Below, piece by piece: positions 49,472 to 63,925 of a DNA stretch of 64,000 nt. Origin of the DNA: Desulfamplus sp. (GTDB lineage Bacteria > Desulfobacterota > Desulfobacteria > Desulfobacterales > Desulfobacteraceae). Numbering within the stretch: position 1 is the first letter of the stretch; every line of letters begins with the position of its first letter. The notes beneath the pieces were generated by a model that saw nothing but the letters and a program-made list of their open reading frames with translations, was not told the origin of the DNA and did not search any database. The stretch spans positions 1 to 64,000 of the forward strand of contig JADGBE010000008.1 in assembly GCA_015231615.1 (NCBI GenBank), in the 5' to 3' direction. The position numbers and the translations under genes are program-made.

Positions 49472-50470
49472 ATGATTAGTATTTCATGTGGTTCGTGTGG
49501 AAAAAATTATAAACTTGATCCGAAGATGATAAAATCGGGAAATGCGAAATTTACCTGCAAAAATTGTGGCTATTCTAATCCTATTGGTCCAAATCTTAAT
49601 ATACAAGCTCAAGGTAAAGGTTTATCTAAAACAGAGGCTATTAACCAAAAGCCAGAAGTTCAGACATCAAATCCTAACGCTGCTACATCTCAATCCTCAA
49701 GCCTAAAAACAACATCAGAACCCGCTTCTAAGACACAGACTACTCAATTCAACCGTGATATACTTCAGGTAACATGGACAAATCGTCTTCAGGTCAAGGT
49801 AAATGCCGTGTTAATACCATTGATTATAGTTATTATGAGTATATTTGCTACAATTACATATATCACAGAAAAACAAAAAATGGAGAGTGAGCTTCAAAAG
49901 TCATCTAAAGTTGTTGCGAAAAGGCTTTCAGTTTACCTTGTTGAAGCATTTTGGTCTCTTGATGATGAGATACTTCAAGAATCGCTTAAATCTGAGATGA
50001 TGGATAATAACATCTATTCTATTAATTTAATTGACCGTAGCGGTAAAGTTGTTTATCTCGGCTATAAAAGGGATAAAGATGGTAATTTGACTTCAAACAA
50101 CTCTTCTGTTGAGGGTATTTATATAAAAGCAGATGAAGGTATTATCAAAGATTCCAATAAGATAGGTAGCGTTGAGGTCTATTTTTCATCAGCTTTCTTC
50201 TTGGAACAGTTTAATAAATCAATGTATAAACTTATAATTACTGCCCTGCTTCTTATTGTTGCTGTATCCCTTACTGCATCTGTGGTTCTTAACCAGATGA
50301 TTCTTGCACCAATTCGTAGATTGACAGATATTGCTAACAAAATAAGCATTGGAAATCTTGAGCTTGAAATTCCTATAGAATCAAAAGATGAAATTGGCGT
50401 TTTAGCAGATGCCTTTGCAAGAATGAAAGTTAGTATGTCATTTGCGATAAAACAGCTAAGAAAAAGATAG
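49472..50470 (+). CDS. zinc-ribbon (MJ0042-type) membrane protein ending in a HAMP domain
   Basis: CGSCGKNYKLDPKMIKSGNAKFTCKNCGYSNP; two TM segments; ILAPIRRLTDIANKISIGNLELEIPIESKDEIGVLADAFARMKVSM. Confidence 0.8.
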   Translation: MISISCGSCGKNYKLDPKMIKSGNAKFTCKNCGYSNPIGPNLNIQAQGKGLSKTEAINQKPEVQTSNPNAATSQSSSLKTTSEPASKTQTTQFNRDILQVTWTNRLQVKVNAVLIPLIIVIMSIFATITYITEKQKMESELQKSSKVVAKRLSVYLVEAFWSLDDEILQESLKSEMMDNNIYSINLIDRSGKVVYLGYKRDKDGNLTSNNSSVEGIYIKADEGIIKDSNKIGSVEVYFSSAFFLEQFNKSMYKLIITALLLIVAVSLTASVVLNQMILAPIRRLTDIANKISIGNLELEIPIESKDEIGVLADAFARMKVSMSFAIKQLRKR

Positions 50471-50568
50471 TTTTTCTTGATTAATTATTTTTAACTATTA
50501 TTTATTTGCACATTTTATTTGTATGGTTTTTTTATTGTTGTTTTACTGATAGATTATAGAGGATCGAC

Positions 50569-50955
50569 ATGAATACTGTAATAAGAGAAGATACCGTAAC
50601 TAAAGTTGAGAAAATTCTGCAGGATTTTATTGAGGAGTCTGGGGCGACATATGCATTGATAACTGATATGGGAGGCAATCCACTTTTTACAGCTGGTGAA
50701 GAGGATTTTGATGTCGATACTCTCGCAGCACTTTCTGCTGCAAACTACGCAACCACAAAAGAGATCGCTAATCTTATAAAGGAAGATAACTTTTCCTTGC
50801 TTTTTCATAGGGGAAATAACGAAAACGTCCATTTTGCAAAAATAACACAAGATATTCTTATGATTGTTCTTTTCAAACCTTTTCTTTCATTAGGTCTTCT
50901 AAGGCTTAAAATAAATAGTTTACAGCAAAAAATCGTCTCTATCATTGGAAATTAA
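50569..50955 (+). CDS. Roadblock/LC7-domain protein (MglB-like)
   Basis: VEKILQDFIEESGATYALITDMGGNPLFTAGEEDFDVDTLAALSAANYATTKEIANLI. Confidence 0.8.
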   Translation: MNTVIREDTVTKVEKILQDFIEESGATYALITDMGGNPLFTAGEEDFDVDTLAALSAANYATTKEIANLIKEDNFSLLFHRGNNENVHFAKITQDILMIVLFKPFLSLGLLRLKINSLQQKIVSIIGN

Positions 50956-51049
50956 AAAGATAGGAGACTATCTCCCCGTATCCTGACAATAGAATAATCA
51001 TGTTGAAGGGGCGACAATATTTAAGAACCGCTTGCATTGGATTTTTATA

Positions 51050-51688
51050 ATGGCTATCGTAAATTTGAAAGACAAAACAATACAGATTAAAATTGTTTAT
51101 TATGGTCCAGGCAGAAGTGGAAAGACCACTAACATTGAATTTATTCATAACAAGCTGCAGCAAAACAAAAATCAGCAAATAAGCAATTTGGTATCAATAG
51201 ACACAAAAGGCGATAGAACACTCTTCTTTGATTTTTTTCCAGTCAGCCTCGGCAAAATAAATGGATTTGACTTAAAACTCAAGCTATACACGACACCGGG
51301 ACAGGTAAAATATGAGGCAACTCGCAGATTAGTACTCAAAGGCGTTGATGGTCTTGTGTTTGTTGCAGATTCCCTAACATCACGCCAAGATGCTAATCTT
51401 GAATCCTTTGAAAATCTTAAAAGCAATTTGCTATATCATAAGCAGAGCCTTTCTGATGTTAAGTTAATTTTTCAATGGAATAAACGAGATATTGACGAAA
51501 AAATGATACCTCTTTCACCAATAGAAGAGATGGAACGACTTTTAAATTCAGAGCTAAAAGTACAATCTTTTCCAGCAAGTGCTACAAGTGGAATGAATGT
51601 GCTTAAAACTGTAAACTATATCTCCAAAGAGACTGTAAAGTCTGTTATTGAGAAGACAATTTTAAATAAACATAAAATGGGCAACTAA
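51050..51688 (+). CDS. MglA-like small GTPase
   Basis: IQIKIVYYGPGRSGKTTNIEFIHNKL, LKLYTTPGQVKYEATRRLVLKGVDGLVFVADS, FQWNKRDI. Confidence 0.92.
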   Translation: MAIVNLKDKTIQIKIVYYGPGRSGKTTNIEFIHNKLQQNKNQQISNLVSIDTKGDRTLFFDFFPVSLGKINGFDLKLKLYTTPGQVKYEATRRLVLKGVDGLVFVADSLTSRQDANLESFENLKSNLLYHKQSLSDVKLIFQWNKRDIDEKMIPLSPIEEMERLLNSELKVQSFPASATSGMNVLKTVNYISKETVKSVIEKTILNKHKMGN

Positions 51689-51862
51689 CAAATATTGTGG
51701 CACCTTTTTTGATTGACAGATAAAGTATTTTAATCTGACAAGTAAACATTTATATATATATATTTATTATAATTAATTACGTTAAAATTCCTGCTATAAA
51801 ATTCCAGACCTAATTTATTAATGGTCTTAATTATTTCATTTCTAAAGAGATTACGGTGATGT

Positions 51863-53035
51863 ATGGATTATCAATTATTTCGTAATATTCTCTCCCCTTA
51901 TCTTGTTGATAATATGTCAGGCATTCAGGAAGTAAAAAAATATGCGGATTCAATTTCAGTTGAAGACGCATTTGATAAAAAATTTCTGACTGTTTTAAAT
52001 AATATTATCAGTTGCTTTGAAACTAATGAAGCGATTAAAAGTTTAGCTTTGACAATTCTTGAGGAGGCAGACTTTTTTTCAGATACATCAATTCATAAGA
52101 CAACTAAAAGCAAATATTTAGATAAAATTCTCTCTGACAGTGATTACATTGAGCATACTAAATCATTTAATTTGAGCGTCATTCAAACCTATGTTGAAAA
52201 AATTATCCATAAGCAACTTTATGAAATAAATATAAAAATAGAAGAGAACCAGAGGAGTTTAAATAAAATTGAAGCAACCTCTGGAAGGATGAGGGAAGAG
52301 GTTCAACAAACAAATTTGGCCCAACAGGCAAATCAAGTTCAGCAAGCAAATTTAGCTCAACAGGTAAATCAGATTAGACAATCAAATCAATCTTTATCAA
52401 ACCTACAGCATAACCGTGCTTTGCAGAATAGAATCCCACAAACTGATAAGATGCCTCAACCTGAGCAACCGCAACGTAAGGTAGTCCCACCTCCTGCTCG
52501 TCAAATAGAATTGCAATCTTCCAATAAGATGGTTCAAGCTACGGCATCTGCACCTCAAGAGGCTATCATAACTCCAAATCAACAACAGGTTCGGTATGTT
52601 GAACAACCTCATAATTCCTCTGATGAAGTCCAGCTTGCAAGTGCAACATCGTCTTTTTTACTTGTTGAGATAGATCAAGAGCAATGTGCTATAACATACG
52701 GTAATGTTGCTGAAATTCTTAAAAGTGACAAACCTGTGCCTGAAAAGATTTTGAAACTTCCGACTATTCCATACAATAAACTTGTAGGATTTGCGAGAGG
52801 ATTCTCTGTATTGAGAAAGGTTGGTAACATTCAAATTGATAAGAAACGATCCTTTAATAACCTTAATGCTACACTTACAAATAAAGAGGATAAACGTTTT
52901 GCTGTAATAGTAGCTAAGGAAGATGACTATAAAATTATTTTTGTTGATTATATTGTTTATGCTGAGCCTGTAGATGCCCAGGAATTAGGAGAGTATGCAA
53001 AAACTGTTGAGGGACAATATAAAATCATTAAATAG
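51863..53035 (+). CDS. Gln-rich protein with CheW-like C-terminal region
   Basis: SSFLLVEIDQEQCAITYGNVAEILKSDKPVPEKILKLPTIPYNKLVGFARGFSVLRK...RFAVIVAKEDDYKIIFVDYIVYAEPV matches CheW secondary pattern; weak. Confidence 0.5.
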   Translation: MDYQLFRNILSPYLVDNMSGIQEVKKYADSISVEDAFDKKFLTVLNNIISCFETNEAIKSLALTILEEADFFSDTSIHKTTKSKYLDKILSDSDYIEHTKSFNLSVIQTYVEKIIHKQLYEINIKIEENQRSLNKIEATSGRMREEVQQTNLAQQANQVQQANLAQQVNQIRQSNQSLSNLQHNRALQNRIPQTDKMPQPEQPQRKVVPPPARQIELQSSNKMVQATASAPQEAIITPNQQQVRYVEQPHNSSDEVQLASATSSFLLVEIDQEQCAITYGNVAEILKSDKPVPEKILKLPTIPYNKLVGFARGFSVLRKVGNIQIDKKRSFNNLNATLTNKEDKRFAVIVAKEDDYKIIFVDYIVYAEPVDAQELGEYAKTVEGQYKIIK

Positions 53036-53158
53036 AACTAAATAGCTTATATTATCCCGTTACTTTGAAGTCAGTAGTTTATGATTATTAACTTTTTCGT
53101 AATTGTTAGTTAATTATAATTAATTAAAGTAGTAATAAGAAAAAGGTGTTGAAGATTT

Positions 53159-53725
53159 ATGTTGAATGGAACCCTTAAAACTTTTTCGCTTGGCAGTCTG
53201 CTTCAAATCTGCTCCAATGAAAATAATACAGGTGCATTGGAATTTTCTATGAGAGGTAGTCTGTGTGGAAGGATTGGATTTGAGAATGGTGATGTGGTCT
53301 ATTCAGATTTTCTTGGAATGAAAGGGGTTGATGCTGTTAGACAAATTTCTCTTCTTAAGGAAATTGACTTTCAATATAATAATTCTATAGAAATTTATGA
53401 AAAAAATATCGATATTGATATAAATTTTCTTATTATTGACTGCACAAGATATGCTGATGAAAGTGTTGCATATCTTGATGAATTAAAAGAGAATATATTA
53501 AATAAATATAAAATAGAATCACTAAATTTTTTTGAATATGATAATGTTGTATTTACATCTCTAAACCTTCACGGAGTCCACTATTTTGAAAGTGGCGAGG
53601 ACGAAAAATTTAATATTATATATTTAGATAGAAATATTAATGCAAGAATTCAGATTGTTTTTAATCAGAAAATTCTTACAGATTACCTCTTAATATACAT
53701 GCGTGAAAAAGGGATTCTTAAATGA
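53159..53725 (+). CDS. DUF4388 (PATAN-like) protein
   Basis: LNGTLKTFSLGSLLQICSNENNTGALEFSMRGSLCGRIGFENGDVVYSDFLGMKGVDAVRQI. Confidence 0.75.
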   Translation: MLNGTLKTFSLGSLLQICSNENNTGALEFSMRGSLCGRIGFENGDVVYSDFLGMKGVDAVRQISLLKEIDFQYNNSIEIYEKNIDIDINFLIIDCTRYADESVAYLDELKENILNKYKIESLNFFEYDNVVFTSLNLHGVHYFESGEDEKFNIIYLDRNINARIQIVFNQKILTDYLLIYMREKGILK

Positions 53726-54729
53726 TTCCAAAATTTGATGTTTATCATACTGAGCTTCATTCGAGTTATATCTATTTTGAAAAATATAGGCTATTTTTAC
53801 AAAGTCAGAGATTTAGTGGCTACGTTCAATTGGAAAATGGTCAAAAACAATATCTCTTTTTTTTGAAAGAGGGAAAAGATGTTGGATATTTAAAGATAGT
53901 TGATCATAAATTAAAATTATTTGATTTATCAGAAATAGAATTAATATTAAAAAATTCTTTTTCTGTATCATCTTACAGATCGCCTCATCAGATAGTAGAT
54001 TTCTTTGCAAGATGCCATGCAACACAGTTGATTCTTGACAACCTTTTTTTTGATTCAGTTGAGTTTGATAAGTTCTTTAATCAGATTGAGTCAAAAAAAA
54101 TTACAGGATTCCTCCAAGCCTCAAAATCTGGAGAGCCTGAAAGATATATATATCTATATAGTGGTAAAATATTTGGGTATATGAATATAAAAGGTAAAGA
54201 TGGACTATTTGAGAAAAATTTAGATAAAAATCAGATACAGGTGGCACTTAAAAATTCAACTGTTAAGGTCTATTCAATTCCCCCTTCTTCTGATATAGCT
54301 AAGAGGCGTTCAACTTCAGATTCAGATAGTGGCAATAATCAATTAGATAATATTAAAACAACTCATAACCAAAATATAACTGATAAAAGTAATAATGATG
54401 AAAATAGGCTATCTATTATTGAATGTTATGAGAAAATTTTTCAACTTCTTGAAAAAAATACAGAATCTGTGGAGTTTACCTCAATATGGCGAATGTGTGC
54501 CTTGGAGTTGAGTAATAAATATATATTTCTCAATCCATTTGCGGGAGAATTCAACTATGATAACAGTAAAATTGATCTGTGGGAAAAAATTGACCTAAAA
54601 ATAGCAACTAATGCCTTAGATGAGTTAATCAACGCTATTGCTAAAAAAGCAAACCTTCCTAAAGATGGAATTAAAGCAATAAAAGATAACTATTTAACTA
54701 TACTGGCTGCCTATGAAATCAGAAGCTAA
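53722..54729 (+). CDS. hypothetical protein with two possible DUF4388-like segments
   Basis: ATGA overlap with previous gene; FSGYVQLENGQKQYLFFLKEGKDVGYL and ITGFLQASKSGEPERYIYLYSGKIFGYM resemble each other. Confidence 0.5.
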   Translation: MIPKFDVYHTELHSSYIYFEKYRLFLQSQRFSGYVQLENGQKQYLFFLKEGKDVGYLKIVDHKLKLFDLSEIELILKNSFSVSSYRSPHQIVDFFARCHATQLILDNLFFDSVEFDKFFNQIESKKITGFLQASKSGEPERYIYLYSGKIFGYMNIKGKDGLFEKNLDKNQIQVALKNSTVKVYSIPPSSDIAKRRSTSDSDSGNNQLDNIKTTHNQNITDKSNNDENRLSIIECYEKIFQLLEKNTESVEFTSIWRMCALELSNKYIFLNPFAGEFNYDNSKIDLWEKIDLKIATNALDELINAIAKKANLPKDGIKAIKDNYLTILAAYEIRS

Positions 54730-55093
54730 AAATGATCCAGAGCTATTTATAAAGAAACACGACTATATAATAAATCTTATTATATCTATTAAGAATAAAA
54801 TATCCTTTTTTCCTGATCTTAGAAAACAAGAACAGGGCTATTACAGAGAAATTTATTATAACGATATTATCGCAAAGATCAAAGAGCAATACCCTTCTGA
54901 CACACAACTGATTGTAATAAAAGAGAATCAGAGTATTATGTATGTGGTTAAAAAAGATATATTGATCTTTATTTGCGAATGTTCAAGTAAAGGAAGTGTC
55001 TCCCAAATAAAAATGGAGCTTAATGAATTTATTGAGGAGTTTCAAAAACAGGGAAAATATAAAAAATTTTTTTCGTCTATTTTTAACTGGTAG
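54713..55093 (+). CDS. hypothetical protein, translationally coupled
   Basis: 126-aa ORF overlapping the upstream gene by 17 nt, same strand. Confidence 0.55.
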   Translation: MKSEAKNDPELFIKKHDYIINLIISIKNKISFFPDLRKQEQGYYREIYYNDIIAKIKEQYPSDTQLIVIKENQSIMYVVKKDILIFICECSSKGSVSQIKMELNEFIEEFQKQGKYKKFFSSIFNW

Positions 55094-55192
55094 CTATTTA
55101 CTCCGCCTATAATTTTTATGACATAACTTATTTGATTTTCAGCCAAACCGTCTCTTCCGTTAGCAATTTAGAGTCATTAAGGAGTATATTAT

Positions 55193-55696
55193 ATGCTTAA
55201 ATATATTATCGAATTAATTCCTACAACAGATAATAGCGTAACTCTCTCTTCTTCAGAGTGGGCAATTATTGTGATGCTTACAAAATATCCTGACTTTAAT
55301 AGACTTATTGCTGAACTTAAGAAAAACAACAACATGACTATGGAAGAGATAAAAGGTTTACTTGGCAATCTTCAGAAGAGAAAGATTTTAAAACTCTTTC
55401 AAACAGAGGTTTCTGCTGAAGATACTGCTACTATATCTTCCCCTCAGACATCTGTAGCAATGCCTGAGACCCCTTCTATATTCTGGGAAAGGCTTGAAAA
55501 TGAGTTGTCTCGAGCAATAGGACCCATAGCATCTATTGTAATTGACGATTCAGTCTCAGAATTTAATATGCCTCGAGAAAAATTTCCCACAAAGTTTCTC
55601 TACAGCTTAGTTGAAAAAGTCGCGGCTGAGATAAATTCAAGTGTTGAGAAGACTCAGTTTCAAAAAGCGATGCTTGAAGTAATTAAACAAATTTAA
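55193..55696 (+). CDS. DUF8082-like protein
   Basis: C-terminal FWERLENELSRAIGPIASIVIDDSVSEFNMPREKFPTKFLYSLVEKVAAEI. Confidence 0.55.
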   Translation: MLKYIIELIPTTDNSVTLSSSEWAIIVMLTKYPDFNRLIAELKKNNNMTMEEIKGLLGNLQKRKILKLFQTEVSAEDTATISSPQTSVAMPETPSIFWERLENELSRAIGPIASIVIDDSVSEFNMPREKFPTKFLYSLVEKVAAEINSSVEKTQFQKAMLEVIKQI

Positions 55697-55833
55697 TGTC
55701 TCTTATATTGATATAAATCTCAATTTCTATCAAATATCTAAATCGAGATTTATATCTAAAATAGTGTAGTTGAATAGTTAATGGTGCGAATCAAAGAGGT
55801 AGCAGGCTTTTACTGACCCTAAATCTGAATTGA

Positions 55834-57777
55834 GTGATTGATATGACAGAAGACATAGATATTAAAAAATTGACAGACGATGCTTTTATGGCTATAGACG
55901 CCCTTTTTACTGATGAAGATAGCGATATATTTTCAGAAGAGAAGGAGAAAGAGCCTGATGATTTTGATTTGATCCAAGAGTATATGCTTGCTATTGAGTG
56001 GGAATGTTCTGATAAGAATATCAAGAAATTCGGTGATTTCCTAAATAAACTTACCCCTAAATATGGTGGAAAGCATAATCAAGATGTTCTTAAAATGCTT
56101 TCAAGCATTTTAAAGTATCTTGAGAAAGCAAAAGAGAAAGCTATTCCAGAGACACATCAGGTAATGGAGTTCATTGTCAAAACTTTTAAACATATCAATC
56201 AACACGGGATTGATGAAGCCACAATTAAACAAGAAAAAAATAACGCATACAATAAAGTTTTAGATCTAAAGAGCAAAATAGCAAAGTTAAAGGCTGAAAA
56301 CCCATATTCGCAAGAAGTTTATGGGGCAGTAGAGAGCCAACAGATTAAAGAACAAAGCTCACAATTACAGCCAGCTACAAAAGCAATGCAGCCAGATCAA
56401 AGAGCAAACTTACGACCTACAACTAATTTATCATCAACAACCTCTGTAACTCCTCAATATTCTTCACCAATACCTACTGAACCAATTGAAAATTCACCAA
56501 TAGTAGTCAGCATGCTTACAAGGCTTGATTTTTGTGAGAATAGACTCTCGGCTATTGATGCACAAAATACTAAATTGCAACAACAGATTTATGAACTTAC
56601 CAATCTAAATAGGCAGCTAAATGATCAGATAAGTGATATTGAATTGAAGTTTGCTGATAAGATTAATGATTTATATGAAATTATAGACTCTCTATCTGTT
56701 CCTACAAATCCTACAAATTCACCAACCAACTCTTCAAACTTAATTGCAAATTTTGAGCAAAACATAGATGCAGATAATCCATCATTTGCTAATATAGATG
56801 ATGATTCAAAGCAATATGAGGAGGTAAGTTTTGATGGACTTGATTTTGACGATATGGACTCAGATATTAATCAACAACCTTACTCTGGAGAAACTAATAA
56901 GGGAAAAGAACAAAGAGGTGTTAAACTCAACGAAGTTGGATTAGATGAGATAGATATTGGAGATATGGGGTTACAAGAAACAGAGTTTGATAGTCCAATT
57001 AAGGGGAAGAAGGAAGAATCTCGCCTTGAAATTGATTTTGATAAGCTAAATACTGATTCAATGAGTGTTGACTCATTTGAGATTGAGAACAATATATTTG
57101 AAAGTAATGAGTTTAAAGAAGAAGTTGAAGATTTTGAAACTATTACTTCTGATGACATTGAGTATGATGAGATCACGGAAGATTTAATTGAGTATAGTGA
57201 AGATAATATAACATCTCCAACTATTTCAGTTGATGATTCAAATTTTGATGTTAAAGCTAAAGATTCAATCAAACTTGAGAAAGAGCCTGAAGAGCTAAAA
57301 AAGAGTGGTTCTGATGATAATGCTCTACTAAAAGAGATTCCTCACTTCGTAAGGTGTTTTAAAATAGAAAAGCAGCCAATTGCTCTGCCTGATGACAAAA
57401 TTTATAATATATATAAAATCCCATCTAAACTTACTAAAAATATTAATCAAATGCCAATTCTTAGTTTAGGAGAGTTCTCTTCACTCTTTCAAAATTTGTC
57501 TAAAAATATGAAAGGACATTTGAAAGATGTAAGTAGCTCTACTTTGAAAAAAATGAATGTTGATCTTCATTTGCTAACTGATAAGAGTGTTCAATATAAG
57601 ATGGCTGTTCTCTGTTCTGTTGAAGATAAAGTTTCTATTATTCCAATTACAGATGTATATGATAACAGAAATCACCCAATGACAGATATAAAAAATGGAC
57701 GCAACGAGTTCTCTGAATATAATGTTAATATTGTTGATATAGGTCTAATACCTTTTGTGCATCTTAGTAAAAAATAA
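55834..57777 (+). CDS. large acidic coiled-coil protein with possible CheW-like C-terminus
   Basis: LDFCENRLSAIDAQNTKLQQQIYELTNLNRQLNDQISDIEL coil; D/E-rich centre; C-terminus CFKIEKQPIALPDDKIYNIYKIP...MAVLCSVEDKVSIIPITDVYD. Confidence 0.55.
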   Translation: MIDMTEDIDIKKLTDDAFMAIDALFTDEDSDIFSEEKEKEPDDFDLIQEYMLAIEWECSDKNIKKFGDFLNKLTPKYGGKHNQDVLKMLSSILKYLEKAKEKAIPETHQVMEFIVKTFKHINQHGIDEATIKQEKNNAYNKVLDLKSKIAKLKAENPYSQEVYGAVESQQIKEQSSQLQPATKAMQPDQRANLRPTTNLSSTTSVTPQYSSPIPTEPIENSPIVVSMLTRLDFCENRLSAIDAQNTKLQQQIYELTNLNRQLNDQISDIELKFADKINDLYEIIDSLSVPTNPTNSPTNSSNLIANFEQNIDADNPSFANIDDDSKQYEEVSFDGLDFDDMDSDINQQPYSGETNKGKEQRGVKLNEVGLDEIDIGDMGLQETEFDSPIKGKKEESRLEIDFDKLNTDSMSVDSFEIENNIFESNEFKEEVEDFETITSDDIEYDEITEDLIEYSEDNITSPTISVDDSNFDVKAKDSIKLEKEPEELKKSGSDDNALLKEIPHFVRCFKIEKQPIALPDDKIYNIYKIPSKLTKNINQMPILSLGEFSSLFQNLSKNMKGHLKDVSSSTLKKMNVDLHLLTDKSVQYKMAVLCSVEDKVSIIPITDVYDNRNHPMTDIKNGRNEFSEYNVNIVDIGLIPFVHLSKK

Positions 57778-59585
57778 TGGAAAAGAATAATCCTATTATT
57801 GATCAAACTCTGTTTGACTTAAAATTGAATGAAGCCCAATTTTATTTAGAACAGGGGCTTTATGATGAAGCTGATAAAATATATGTTAATCTTATTAATG
57901 AGCTTAAACAACTGCCTGAAACTAAAAGCTCTGATATTCAAATAAGACAGTTGGAGTCAATTCGTCAGGAGTATCAAACAGAGACAAAAAAAGATAAAGT
58001 TGCTGTAAAAATATCATCTGATGTTGACAGACGAAGTGATGAAGCTGAATTAAAGAAATCTGAAGTTGACCAAAATAACCAAGATAACTCTAATCAGAAT
58101 AATAACACTATATCCAAAGATGATGATTATAATAGTGGAGAACTTAACAACGATGGTAGTAATAGTGATATAGATAGTCAAGTAGTTGCTTTCATTAACC
58201 AGATGATTATTGAAGCATTTAACAAAAATGCTTCAGACATATACATTGAGCCAACTATAAATGCTAATAACCTTTCTGCCAATTTTATAGGCAAAGACCA
58301 ATCACTATTTAAAACCTATTCTGATAAATCTTCTGATTCAAATATTGCTAAAATTCGTTTTAGAATTGATGGAATATGTCAAGACTACACTGGAATCCCA
58401 AATAAATTCGCTTTACATGTTATATTCAAAATAAAAGTTATGGCAAAAATGGATATTACAGTAAGGGCGACCCCTCTTTACGGCAAAATCAAATTTAAAA
58501 GTGAACCGACAGGAGCTATAGAACTAAAGGCTATAACTATTCCGACCTCAGGTGGTAAAGAGGATATTGTTCTTAAATTCTTTCCAGCCGCAAAACCAAT
58601 GGATTTAGAAAATATTGGATTTCTTGAACATAATCTTAAAAAATTTGTTGAAGTTATAAATAGACCCTTTGGTTTGATTCTTGTTAGTGGCTTATCTGGT
58701 TCTGGTAAAACAACTACTCTCCACTCCGCGTTAAAACTAATAAATAGACCTGAAAAAAAAATATGGTGTGCAGAGCATCCTATTGAAATTACCCAAAGAG
58801 GAATATCCCAAGTAGAAGTTCAACCTCAAAAAGGTCTTAATTATCCTGAACTTCTCAAAGCGTTTATAAAGTCAGGATCAGATGTAGTAATGTTGGGCGA
58901 TATAATTGATTTTGGTGAAAAAGAGATAAGCTATGAGACTACATCTCTTGCCATCAAAGCCTCTTTGACAGGGCATCTAATTTTTGCGGGAGTAAATTCC
59001 TCAAGTCTATCTGATACTATTAGAAAGGTGTTGGAGATTGGTGTAAATCCAATTCATTTCTCAGAAGCACTTTTGTGTATCCTTAACCAGAAACTTATAA
59101 GGCGTTTATGTGAAAAATGTAGAGAGCTTCTATCTGAAGAAAGCTCTAAAAATATCTTAGATATGGCATTTGATGAATTTGGGAAAAATAAATCCTCATC
59201 TGTTGAAAATAGAGAGCCTCTTGAGCTATTTAATCAAATTGATAAAGATAAGATTAGAATTTATAACCATTCACCTGATGGTTGCGAAGATTGTGGTTAT
59301 ACTGGATACAAAGGTAGAGTGGCACTTCATGAACTTCTTATAAACAATGACCTCATAAAATCTTTGATTAAAGAGACCTCAATTAAAGAAACTAATTTTA
59401 TTGAAAAATCAGAAGAGAGTCCTAAAAATAGAGTAAGCTATTTTGAAAGAGTAAATTGTGCTATTCAAAAATTGGATAATAGCAACATATTTACCGCTGG
59501 GAGTTATACCTTAAAACAAGATGGCATACTTAAAGTTATTGCGGGCATTACTGATATTGATGAGATAAGAGATAACACCATATAA
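57777..59585 (+). CDS. divergent GspE/PilB-family secretion ATPase
   Basis: SDIYIEP, RFRIDGICQDY, GLILVSGLSGSGKTTTLHSALKLIN, VVMLGDIIDFGEKE, LTGHLIFAGVNSSS, RRLCEKC...CEDCGYTGYKGRVALHELL. Confidence 0.85.
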   Translation: MEKNNPIIDQTLFDLKLNEAQFYLEQGLYDEADKIYVNLINELKQLPETKSSDIQIRQLESIRQEYQTETKKDKVAVKISSDVDRRSDEAELKKSEVDQNNQDNSNQNNNTISKDDDYNSGELNNDGSNSDIDSQVVAFINQMIIEAFNKNASDIYIEPTINANNLSANFIGKDQSLFKTYSDKSSDSNIAKIRFRIDGICQDYTGIPNKFALHVIFKIKVMAKMDITVRATPLYGKIKFKSEPTGAIELKAITIPTSGGKEDIVLKFFPAAKPMDLENIGFLEHNLKKFVEVINRPFGLILVSGLSGSGKTTTLHSALKLINRPEKKIWCAEHPIEITQRGISQVEVQPQKGLNYPELLKAFIKSGSDVVMLGDIIDFGEKEISYETTSLAIKASLTGHLIFAGVNSSSLSDTIRKVLEIGVNPIHFSEALLCILNQKLIRRLCEKCRELLSEESSKNILDMAFDEFGKNKSSSVENREPLELFNQIDKDKIRIYNHSPDGCEDCGYTGYKGRVALHELLINNDLIKSLIKETSIKETNFIEKSEESPKNRVSYFERVNCAIQKLDNSNIFTAGSYTLKQDGILKVIAGITDIDEIRDNTI

Positions 59586-59593
59586 AACGCAAT

Positions 59594-61837
59594 TTATGCT
59601 CTTGAACAGCATACAGATAGCAGGTCTCTGCCTTCCCTTTCAATATCACACACCAGCAGCCGCACTTTTTCCATATCTCCACTCTTTACAGCAAGCTCTG
59701 TCTGAAAAGCAGCATCTCTGAGGCGATGAGCCGAGCAGTTTGCAGCAAAACCTTTTATTCCATGAGCCTCTCTTATGACACCCTGAACATCATTATTATC
59801 TGCTGCTGTTTTCAATTTATGAATATACTGGGATAAGTTTTCAGGAATTGTTTCAATAATTTGATTCACCAAATCATCGTTTCCTCCGATACGGTTCAGA
59901 AAATCTTCCCTGTCAAATATTGCACTTAGACTTGAGGGTTGCGAATCCATACATGACGATTGAGAATTGATGTCAGAAACAGATGACTTGATTTGGTCAG
60001 GGGGAATATATGTTATGGCATGTTTATAAATTACATCACGTAATTTATCATGATCAACGGGTTTGGAAATATAGCTATCCATTCCTGCAGCAACGCAATT
60101 TTCGCGGTCTTGTAATGTTGTATTGGCGGTCATTGCAATGATGGGAATATCAAATTTCTCGGCTCTTATTATTCTTGCAGCTTCAAGTCCGTCCATCTGT
60201 GGCATCTGAATATCCATTAAAATAATATCATACGGTTTTTTCCTGACAGCCTCAACAGCCTCCTTGCCATTGTTTGCCAAATCTGCATGAATACCCATCT
60301 TTTCCAGAACCTTTAAAGCCACTATCTGGTTGAAACTGTTATCTTCAGCCAGTAGAACACGGGTGCCTGCAATCGGGAAATCAGGGAGAGAAACATTACT
60401 GCCAATTCCATAAACAGGCTTAGAGCTATCAGCCCTTTTATCAACAGGTTTAATAATATCAAACCCTTTCTCAAAAGAAGCAGTAAACTCAAATGTCGAG
60501 CCTTCACCTTCTTGACTTTGAACTGAAATGTTCCCACCCATAAGTTCAACAAGTCGCTTTGAAATCACAAGTCCAAGACCTGTTCCGCCATATTTTCGGG
60601 TTGTTGAGGCATCTGCCTGTGAAAAAGGTTGGAACAGGCGATTCATACGATCTTTTGGAATACCTATGCCTGTATCAGAAACGCTGAAACTTATAATCAC
60701 CTGATTTGGATCATTTTTGAGATCAGCTTCTTCATTTTTGGTTTCATTAGAAGTTTTCTCTATATTGTGTTGGTTGTTATCAGCTTCTTTATTTCTTACA
60801 GTTATAATTATCTCACCTTTAGTCGTGAATTTAATGGCATTATTCACAAGATTCAGAATAATCTGGCGAAGGCGACCAGAATCTCCTTTGAGAAAACGGG
60901 GAACGTCCTGATTGATATAGCAGTTTAGCAAAAGCCCCTTTTCAGAGGCTTTGATTTTCAGCATATCAATTATTTTGCTGACAAGATTTTCAAGATCAAA
61001 ATTAACAGATTCAAGCTCTATTTTGCCTGCCTCTATTTTTGAGAAATCAAGTATATCTTCGATAAGCGATAAAAGTATTTCAGAAGAGTGGATAATAACA
61101 TCAGCATATTGCCCCTGCTCATCTGTGAGATTCGTCTCCCTGATAAGCCTGCCCATTCCGATAATTGCATTCATCGGGGTTCTTATCTCATGGCTCATGT
61201 TGGCAAGAAACTCTGATTTGGCAATGTTGGCAGCTTCTGCAGCGGCTTTTTCTCTTTTCAAGGCCTCAATTTGTTGCTCTGCCATGCTCTGCTCTATTAC
61301 AAGAATATCACGATATGATTTGATGGCTGATGTAAGGACAGTGTAAATCTTCTGTGCTGTAAGTTCTGTCTTCTCCTTGTAACCATCAATATCAAAATTT
61401 TCGATAACATACCGTTCAGGTGCATTTCCTGGTTGACCTGTTCTTATAATGAGCCTGATTCTTTTGAGATTTAGTTGATTGCGGATATATTTAACAAGTT
61501 GAAGTCCTGCATCTTCTGTCTCCATAACCACATCAATTATGGCGACCGCTATATCTTTCTCTTTATTTAAAATTTCCCGGGCTTCTGCTGCCGAGCTTGC
61601 ATTGATAAGCTCAATATTTCTGCCAGCGAATTTGAACCCTTTAAGGCTTATTCTGGTAATTTCATGCACATCAGGTTCATCATCGACAACCAAAATCTTC
61701 CATACCTCACGTTCATCATCTACAACCAGAACTTTCCACACATTGGATTCATCGGGCATGTCAACATCAGGACTATCAGTATTAGATATGGCAACATCTT
61801 CATCCGTTTTTTTATCTTTTTTTCTTATGAGCTTCAT
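59594..61837 (-). CDS. hybrid histidine kinase REC-HisKA-HATPase-REC-HPt
   Basis: [99 protein letters not shown], HPt [18 protein letters not shown]. Confidence 0.95.
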
Positions 61838-61872: not shown

Positions 61873-63141
61873 TCAGAATTGCTTGCTTGTAGAATTACTT
61901 TCCTTTGGAATTGGAACAGATATAAAAAAATCAGTCCCTTTGCCCTTTATACTCTCACATCTGATAGTGCCGTTCAGCCGATTGATTACAATGTTATGGC
62001 AGATATACATCCCAAGACCTGTTCCTCCTCTGGCACGTAGCGTTGTGAAAAAAGGTTCAAAAATCTGCCTGACAGTCTCATCGTCCATCCCTTTCCCTGT
62101 GTCAGAATAGTGTATAAACAGGTCATCTTTTTCCCGCTTCACCATGATAGAGATAGTGCCAGAGAGAATGCCATTGTCAAATCCGTGCAGCAGGCTGTTT
62201 ATCATAAGATTTAATAACAGTTGACCGACATCATTAGGATTGCCATACAGATATATGTCATCAGGACAATCCACGTCAACAATGATAGATGTTTTTTTGA
62301 ACTGGCTGTTCAGGTTGATTACAATATCCTTTATAGTCTCTTTCAGATTATAAATACGAAAATTCTCAACAGATTGATCTATAGCTGTCCGTTTAAAACT
62401 TCCAACAAGTTCTGCTGTACGTTTCAAATTATTTATAACTAAAGGGGAACACTCCTTTATTGTTTCAAGAGCAGTGATAAGCTCCTCTTCATCAACCTCC
62501 TCCCTTGTGAGCATCATATCAATTGAGTGCTGGGCATCTGTAAGAGCTGATGAAGCTGTCAGGGCAATTCCGATTGGTGTGTTTATCTCATGGGCAAATC
62601 CTGCAACTAAACGTCCAAGCGAAGCCATTTTTTCCGATTCAATAAGTTTTGACTGGGCGGTTTTCAAATCAGCAAGTGTTTTTGTCAGCGTCTTTTTCTC
62701 TTTTATCAACTGACGCTGCACATTGTTAAGCTCCTGATTCAACTCCACCATCTCATTGTTCAAGGTGTCAAGCTCACTTATATCATACTCACAAAGAACT
62801 AATAAAAGGTTCTGGCGACATAAAACTTTAGCCTGAACACTTCTGCTTTTTAACGGAGTTCCTGTTGTAAGCACACCATCAAAAATCAAGCCGTCTCCCT
62901 TTATAGCTGCCATATTAACCAGAGTTTGAAAATCAGGATTTATAAATTTTGAGGGGTCAAATTTGCCTTCATCAAGACCCAGAATGTTTTTCATTCCTGT
63001 ATTTATATACAAGGCTTGACCGTTATGGTGTTTATTATATTGGAAAAGTCCGAATGCAAATGCCCTGCTGTTCAAAAGATAGTCATCAACATAAGGAGAC
63101 CATTTATATAGCAATTTTATTATTTCTGGTTCTGGTTTCAT
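61873..63141 (-). CDS. histidine kinase with N-terminal sensory region
   Basis: KMASLGRLVAGFAHEINTPIGIALTASSAL, YSDTGKGMDDETVRQIFEPFFTTLRARGGTGLGMYICHNIV. Confidence 0.92.
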   Translation of the reverse strand: MKPEPEIIKLLYKWSPYVDDYLLNSRAFAFGLFQYNKHHNGQALYINTGMKNILGLDEGKFDPSKFINPDFQTLVNMAAIKGDGLIFDGVLTTGTPLKSRSVQAKVLCRQNLLLVLCEYDISELDTLNNEMVELNQELNNVQRQLIKEKKTLTKTLADLKTAQSKLIESEKMASLGRLVAGFAHEINTPIGIALTASSALTDAQHSIDMMLTREEVDEEELITALETIKECSPLVINNLKRTAELVGSFKRTAIDQSVENFRIYNLKETIKDIVINLNSQFKKTSIIVDVDCPDDIYLYGNPNDVGQLLLNLMINSLLHGFDNGILSGTISIMVKREKDDLFIHYSDTGKGMDDETVRQIFEPFFTTLRARGGTGLGMYICHNIVINRLNGTIRCESIKGKGTDFFISVPIPKESNSTSKQF

Positions 63142-63262: not shown

Positions 63263-63925
63263 TTATGTTCCTGCCGCAAGAAAGTTTTTAATATAATCTT
63301 CCAATGCGTCTAAAGTTGGAAGATAAGTGGTGTTCTTAAAGTTTTCGATTATCGAACTTCCACCCCGTTTAAATGCCTGTCCACCAATAATTACTGGTAA
63401 ATCCTTGAAGTTGTCGTTGATTGATTGCAATGTCCTTTTAAGCGTATCTATATGAAAATATACAGACATTGAGAGACCAACAAGATTTGGCTGAACCTCT
63501 CTGATAAAGCTAATTAACTCCTGAACAGGTGTATTTGCCCCTAAATATATTGTATTCCATCCATGCAATTCAAATATATCTGCAACCATTTTGCCGCCAA
63601 TCTGGTGCGGTTCATCTTCCACAGAAGATATAATTACAGTCTTGTTGACAGCCTCCCCAATGGGTAGTTGGGCAGCCATCTGATTCATAAGGCTTTCTGT
63701 TATCAGCGTTGCCATGTGTTCGGTAGCAACCGTGATTTTGTTATATTCCCATAACTCGCCTACAGAATACAAAGACCTTTGCAGTAAACCTTGATATAGC
63801 GTTTTAATTTCACAATCGCCTGAAAACAACCCATTCACTATGTTGTAGCAGGGTATTCGTTTTCCTCGAATAAGATTAGTGAAGTAGTTTGTATATTGCT
63901 CTTCGTCTATTATCGGATTTTTCAT
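63263..63925 (-). CDS. cobalamin (B12)-binding domain protein
   Basis: SVGELWEYNKITVATEHMATLI, VEDEPHQIGGKMVADIFELHGWNTIYLGANTPVQELISFI, PNLVGLSMSV, PVIIGGQAF. Confidence 0.88.
   Translation of the reverse strand: MKNPIIDEEQYTNYFTNLIRGKRIPCYNIVNGLFSGDCEIKTLYQGLLQRSLYSVGELWEYNKITVATEHMATLITESLMNQMAAQLPIGEAVNKTVIISSVEDEPHQIGGKMVADIFELHGWNTIYLGANTPVQELISFIREVQPNLVGLSMSVYFHIDTLKRTLQSINDNFKDLPVIIGGQAFKRGGSSIIENFKNTTYLPTLDALEDYIKNFLAAGT

Follow-up and report, generated by a model that had tools for sequence, protein, structure and literature searches.

We describe a block of ten genes at positions 49472–59585 of a 64 000-nt stretch of a Desulfamplus contig (hereafter the window). With moderate confidence we read it as a GTPase-controlled motor-licensing operon in which the motor itself has become a 'pseudo-ATPase' adaptor, likely gating type IV pilus (T4P) extension by intact PilB-type ATPases. 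An ORF check of the window confirmed ten ORFs, all in one direction (lettered A to J):

A, 49472..50470, + strand: membrane protein with Zn-ribbon, transmembrane and HAMP regions, 332 aa (Pfam: HAMP, 5.2e-10; Zn_ribbon_4, 2e-6)
B, 50569..50955, + strand: Roadblock/LC7 protein, MglB-like, 128 aa (Pfam: Robl_LC7, 5e-8)
C, 51050..51688, + strand: MglA-type small GTPase, 212 aa (a TTG start at 51032 is also possible)
D, 51863..53035, + strand: 390 aa, with a helical N-terminus, a Gln-rich linker and a C-terminal domain that is weakly CheW-like
E, 53159..53725, + strand: DUF4388/PATAN protein, 188 aa (DUF4388, 1.4e-11)
F, 53722..54729, + strand: PATAN-related protein, 335 aa (sub-threshold DUF4388)
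G, 54713..55093, + strand: 126 aa, no fold assigned, kept in six operons
H, 55193..55696, + strand: winged-helix-like plus helical domain, 167 aa, conserved, with a relative in locus L142
I, 55834..57777, + strand: acidic coiled scaffold, 647 aa, GTG start, with a helical N-terminal domain and a D-like C-terminal domain
J, 57777..59585, + strand: degenerate PilB/GspE-family ATPase, 602 aa (Pfam: T2SSE, 4.8e-71)

The first-pass annotation of this DNA had reported ten co-directional genes with three translational couplings; all are present and the overlaps are exact, namely ATGA at 53722–53725 (4-nt overlap of E and F), 17 nt shared by F and G at 54713–54729, and TAATG at 57777 joining I and J. 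Its Zn-ribbon plus HAMP, Roadblock/LC7, small GTPase, DUF4388 and T2SSE assignments are each backed by Pfam. The label 'DUF8082-like' for H was not reproduced, H having no Pfam match. The relatives of H look like winged-helix proteins.

The identical order, A to J, was found in four more Desulfamplus metagenome-assembled genomes (MAGs; G007, G004, G008 and G001), and fragments of the block in a further three (G003, G005, G006). Two upstream genes are common to the window and G007 only; the flanks in the other three full-order genomes are unrelated. Because the flanks differ in this way, the ten-gene block itself is the unit of conservation. Downstream of the block in the window lie two sensor-kinase-like genes on the opposite strand (59594–61837 and 61873–63141), which on inspection of the translations look like a receiver-bearing hybrid kinase and a second kinase, as well as a gene for a B12-binding-like protein (63263–63925); these genes have no counterparts adjoining the blocks of other Desulfamplus genomes. 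In two genomes from other genera of the same family (G011 and G355) genes B to J follow the same order with the motor intact, the A-type HAMP genes coming late. The gene order is more than chance: it recurs with unrelated flanks, and many families share a related order. As to the proposal that these genes form a module, the order proved to be conserved among relatives, with the genes neither scattered nor arranged as a standard T4P or gliding operon.

The switch of the block consists of genes B and C. The profile of C matched MglA structures (6h17/5ymx) with E 8e-55 over residues 1–195. As motif criteria for MglA we used the P-loop GxxxxGK[ST], Thr in the G3 motif YTxPGQ, NKxD, and the conserved Arg of DRTLFFDF; the window protein has GPGRSGKTT, YTTPGQ, NKRD and DRTLFFDF, the first two being invariant in all six aligned copies. 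By its full G-domain match and these motifs, C is an MglA-type GTPase. The profile of B matched MglB structures (6h5b/6izw; E 9e-17), and B is 98–100% identical to three other copies in the genus; we take it to be an LC7 domain related to MglB and the putative GAP partner of C. Both genes have dN/dS ≤0.04. The same genome carries a second LC7–MglA pair on another contig (C171; L184:9100-10187), followed by a 710-aa gene, and no J-type ATPase was seen at that locus. Tandem LC7 genes ∼1.1 kb apart in several genomes of the order (G175:C137, G153:C39, G056:C58) suggest duplicated MglB-type proteins.

Gene A, which heads the block in five genomes, has no kinase or MCP output domain in Pfam and is a putative sensor. 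Two relatives have a gene for a class III cytochrome c within the operon, beside the HAMP gene (L049:8118-8621 in G011 and L142:8476-8985 in a genome of the f110 clade), which suggests a redox input to the membrane sensor. Among the candidate adaptors, E scored 44.9 bits for DUF4388 against a Pfam cut-off of 25, and its counterpart in the order-level relative L130 is a REC+DUF4388 protein, i.e. a receiver-PATAN response regulator. For F the DUF4388 score was below the cut-off in the window protein (15.8 bits) and above it in the relative at L142 (27.1 bits); profile searches of F and E against PDB returned nothing useful. The relative of H at L142 has DUF4388 fused to the winged-helix region. 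A gene similar in size to G is present in order-level operons; its homology with G was undetectable and it was not accepted as a G homologue. The N-terminal domain of I is related to a ∼240-aa adaptor encoded after mglA in order-level operons, and the C-terminal domains of D and I are homologous to each other. These two tails had been described as CheW-like. CheW is indeed the top Pfam family, the one matched by most members (5 of 20), but only below threshold (best E 0.006), while the best PDB indication was CheA at E 0.1; the description is plausible. AlphaFold2 models of the tails, for which the input was only window and Desulfamplus sequences, were unusable (pLDDT 33 and 40).

Homologues of F were found by profile in 101 of 390 genomes of the order, and homologues of H in 31 of 297 genomes of the phylum. 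The colinear set seen elsewhere runs LC7, MglA, I-like adaptor, (H), Zn-ribbon/HAMP, F, DUF4388, a small gene and the ATPase, or B-C-I-(H)-A-F-E-x-J in the letters of the block. Twenty-nine F loci longer than 13 kb were examined; MglA occurs at 26 of them, and 24 also carry the ATPase, on the same strand as MglA. The proportion is biased, since the set was assembled from the best matches to F and H plus contigs with both F and the ATPase. The ATPases of the intact operons have TPR-like, MshEN and T2SSE regions. By these comparisons, the Desulfamplus block is one branch of a widespread Desulfobacterota operon with an intact ATPase, and the wider GTPase-gated motor operon is fairly secure as anatomy. 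In the ancestral form, an MglA/MglB switch, a membrane HAMP protein and PATAN adaptors would control a dedicated, intact motor bearing MshEN (a domain of the c-di-GMP-binding type). In L130 the intact ATPase is followed immediately by genes for a PilZ-domain protein and a class III adenylate/guanylate cyclase (L130:2709-4255), pointing to cyclic-nucleotide control.

Two groups of genes were considered as further counterparts of J and rejected. A 773-aa gene (L160) and a 764-aa gene (L128) near the J position are unrelated to it: the J profile misses both, and by inspection they are thioredoxin-domain and PBP-like; some operons are therefore without J. The 770-aa ATPases of the order (L050-L061), first found by similarity, belong to a distinct paralogue encoded away from the operon and are left out of its membership.

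We aligned J with 52 relatives and canonical ATPases. Every aligned sequence from outside the genus, the nearest outgroups (L049 and L132) included, has EDPxE, GE(I/M)RD and an intact His box, whereas in all eight copies from the genus the Asp of the Asp box and the His of the His box are gone and GE(I/M)RD is no longer intact. In the window J these sites read EHPIE (Asp box), GDIID (Walker B) and GVNSS (His box) versus EDPxE, GE(I/M)RD and TLHTN. Three of the eight (L044, L046, L047) have Ile or Val in place of the Walker A Lys; the window J has an intact Walker A, GLSGSGKT (canonical GPTGSGKT). Every genus copy still has the second Glu of the Asp box, and we therefore make no claim that the catalytic Glu was lost. 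The tetracysteine zinc site (CEKC...CEDC) is intact. MshEN, present in the intact orthologues, has no Pfam match in J; compared with the intact forms, ∼230 residues that include this domain are absent from the genus copies. Against the NCBIfam equivalogs J scored 287 versus 676 bits (PilB) and 264 versus 630 bits (GspE), short of both cut-offs. In a FastTree phylogeny of a 329-column core the genus copies formed one clade (support 0.978), joined to the intact L049 and L132 at 0.99; a single loss at the base of the genus is the simplest history.

That J is a standard PilB is ruled out by the motifs, and an assembly artefact by recurrence of the degeneracy in eight MAGs. The first-pass annotation had called J a 'divergent GspE ATPase'. 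The family was right; as the catalytic motifs are lost throughout the genus and intact in every aligned relative outside it, 'divergent' gives way to inactivation and probable repurposing. Hydrolysis by J has presumably been lost, though the window J may, given its intact Walker A and second Asp-box Glu, bind nucleotide and even hydrolyze it slowly. One could argue on the same grounds, with the intact zinc cysteines and the conserved ORF and fold added, that J is still an active and merely divergent motor, hydrolyzing ATP at an altered site (Walker A in the window has the form GxxGSGKT) and driving a pilus-like or secretion machine of its own. We regard this as unlikely: no genus copy has the His box, the Asp-box Asp or the Walker B signature GE(I/M)RD unaltered, and within this operon family three close relatives are without the Walker A Lys.

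A 'pseudo-ATPase' may also be a pseudogene in the making, decaying after the motor function of the module was lost; the long branches of the enzyme core in the tree are in line with such decay, as is the dN/dS of J, which ranges from 0.17 to 0.31 (with dS near saturation for the more distant pairs) and is, versus L043, the highest among the ten genes (0.31). Still, J is under purifying selection: pN was 0.056 versus pS of 0.167 in comparison with L043 (Fisher p 1e-10), and for L042 the Fisher p was 1e-14. The ORF is intact in all full-length genus copies, translational coupling is kept in the window, G005, G007, G004, G003 and G008, and the divergence spans several species. Moreover, the N-terminal 70 aa are 86–87% identical to those of L044 and L047, while the core is only 62% and 58% identical. 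Because this segment is conserved far above the core, we count it, along with the fold and the zinc site, among the retained parts of J. Decay, then, seems to us very improbable.

PilB-type motors that J could gate are present elsewhere in the genome. A family search, which locates T4P genes and does not prove a complete T4aP locus, gave four intact PilB/GspE ATPases and three PilT-type matches; three contigs carry PilC-type proteins and two carry secretins, in an incomplete genome (89.8%) of 200 contigs. One of the intact PilB-type ATPases has a C-terminal cyclic-nucleotide-binding domain after T2SSE (L163:8560-10791). On the contig of the block (C189) the family search found no T2SSF/PilC and no secretin, in agreement with the earlier statement that the window lacks PilC and secretin genes; genes for pilin, PilC or secretin are missing beside the block there, and the neighbours scanned in other genomes included none.

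The absence of adjoining T4P structural genes is what one would expect if the module controlled an output other than T4P (such as general cell polarity, chemosensory arrays, EPS or transcription), with the ATPase homologue now only a scaffold. The CheW-like tails and the winged-helix-like H would fit chemosensory or transcriptional outputs, other MglA systems are described as having non-pilus outputs (PMC4316618), and PilB itself is reported to affect EPS (PMC11656802). Against this, the wider operon has as its partner an MshEN-T2SSE ATPase that is intact, and motors of this type are otherwise dedicated to pili or secretion machines; a PilZ gene is a neighbour in at least one clade, and PATAN and MglA are both known controllers of PilB. 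We find a non-T4P output doubtful, if less so than an active or a decaying J.

In our preferred reading, a pseudo-ATPase gating T4P extension, J would have lost the hydrolysis machinery and MshEN while keeping the fold, the zinc site and the N-terminal segment, and would serve as an adaptor, decoy or regulatory subunit. In its GTP state the GTPase, together with the membrane protein and the PATAN/CheW-like adaptors, would recruit J to the base of a type IV pilus-like machine or release it there; J would gate the access or activity of the catalytically intact PilB-type motors of the genome. The link to T4P would follow, by analogy, from the known biology of MglA–PilB and PATAN–PilB; the pilus output (extension or polarity), the docking of J to the pilus platform or to PilB and its role as a clutch are likewise what we infer, as is the joint action of the parts in polarity or motility that was suggested earlier. 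One could speculate further, as a possibility to be held tentatively, that J is a non-hydrolyzing, GTPase-controlled clutch, docked on the pilus base or mixed into PilB hexamers, a motor turned into a switch.

In Myxococcus xanthus MglA is reported to recruit PilB through the TPR protein SgmX, direct SgmX–PilB contact having gone undetected (PMC11580455); the output described for this pathway is licensing of PilB at the pole (PMC11580455, PMC7519303). An MglA GTPase with Roadblock/LC7, a TPR-like element and a PilB-family ATPase are common to the pathway and to the operon described here. In contrast to M. xanthus, one operon combines these with genes for PATAN proteins, a HAMP protein and coiled scaffolds, the ATPase carries the TPR-like segment as a fusion, and the Desulfamplus ATPase is catalytically degenerate. 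PATAN domains are reported to bind PilB (PMC10519157; PMC12288463), and the cyanobacterial PixG-type regulators described there pair PATAN/DUF4388 with a PilB-type motor, much as the order-level operon has a REC-PATAN protein; the cited passages name no MglA, whereas here E and the PATAN-related F share one operon with it, and one clade has the H-PATAN fusion. The accessory extension ATPases TfpB, PilB2 and MshE (PMC11656802, PMC11580455) resemble the intact operon ATPase as motors beyond canonical PilB with MshEN and T2SSE; the cited passages describe for them neither a GTPase-operon link nor catalytic loss. Extension ATPases are reported to need the Walker motifs and a catalytic Glu; a Walker A mutant of PilB is reported still to affect signalling (PMC11656802). 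Conservons (Cvn) and other MglA/LC7 operons likewise combine MglA, LC7 and a membrane HAMP protein; as described in PMC4316618, conservons have a histidine kinase and CvnC and, unlike the present block, no ATPase motor or PATAN. In the same source Wuichet and Sogaard-Andersen mention PATAN genes occasionally near mglA, the cited passage naming no ATPase-linked operon.

Within the open-licence literature searched, where absence is no proof, we found no description of such an operon, whether for MglA in Desulfobacterota or for LC7 with GspE, and none of a pseudo-ATPase PilB or of a PilB-family extension ATPase that is catalytically dead yet retained under selection. The candidate undescribed module of the first-pass annotation is a real, conserved and apparently undescribed MglA/MglB–PATAN–PilB-family-ATPase set; it is, however, not local, and its ATPase in Desulfamplus is no credible motor.

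How MglA makes PilB fire is described as an open question even in Myxococcus (PMC11580455). A widespread operon linking MglA, MglB, PATAN adaptors and a PilB-type ATPase offers a candidate contact chain in one gene block. The Desulfamplus pseudo-ATPase would be a natural separation-of-function experiment, in which the N-terminal 70 residues and the zinc region were kept once the catalytic motifs were gone.
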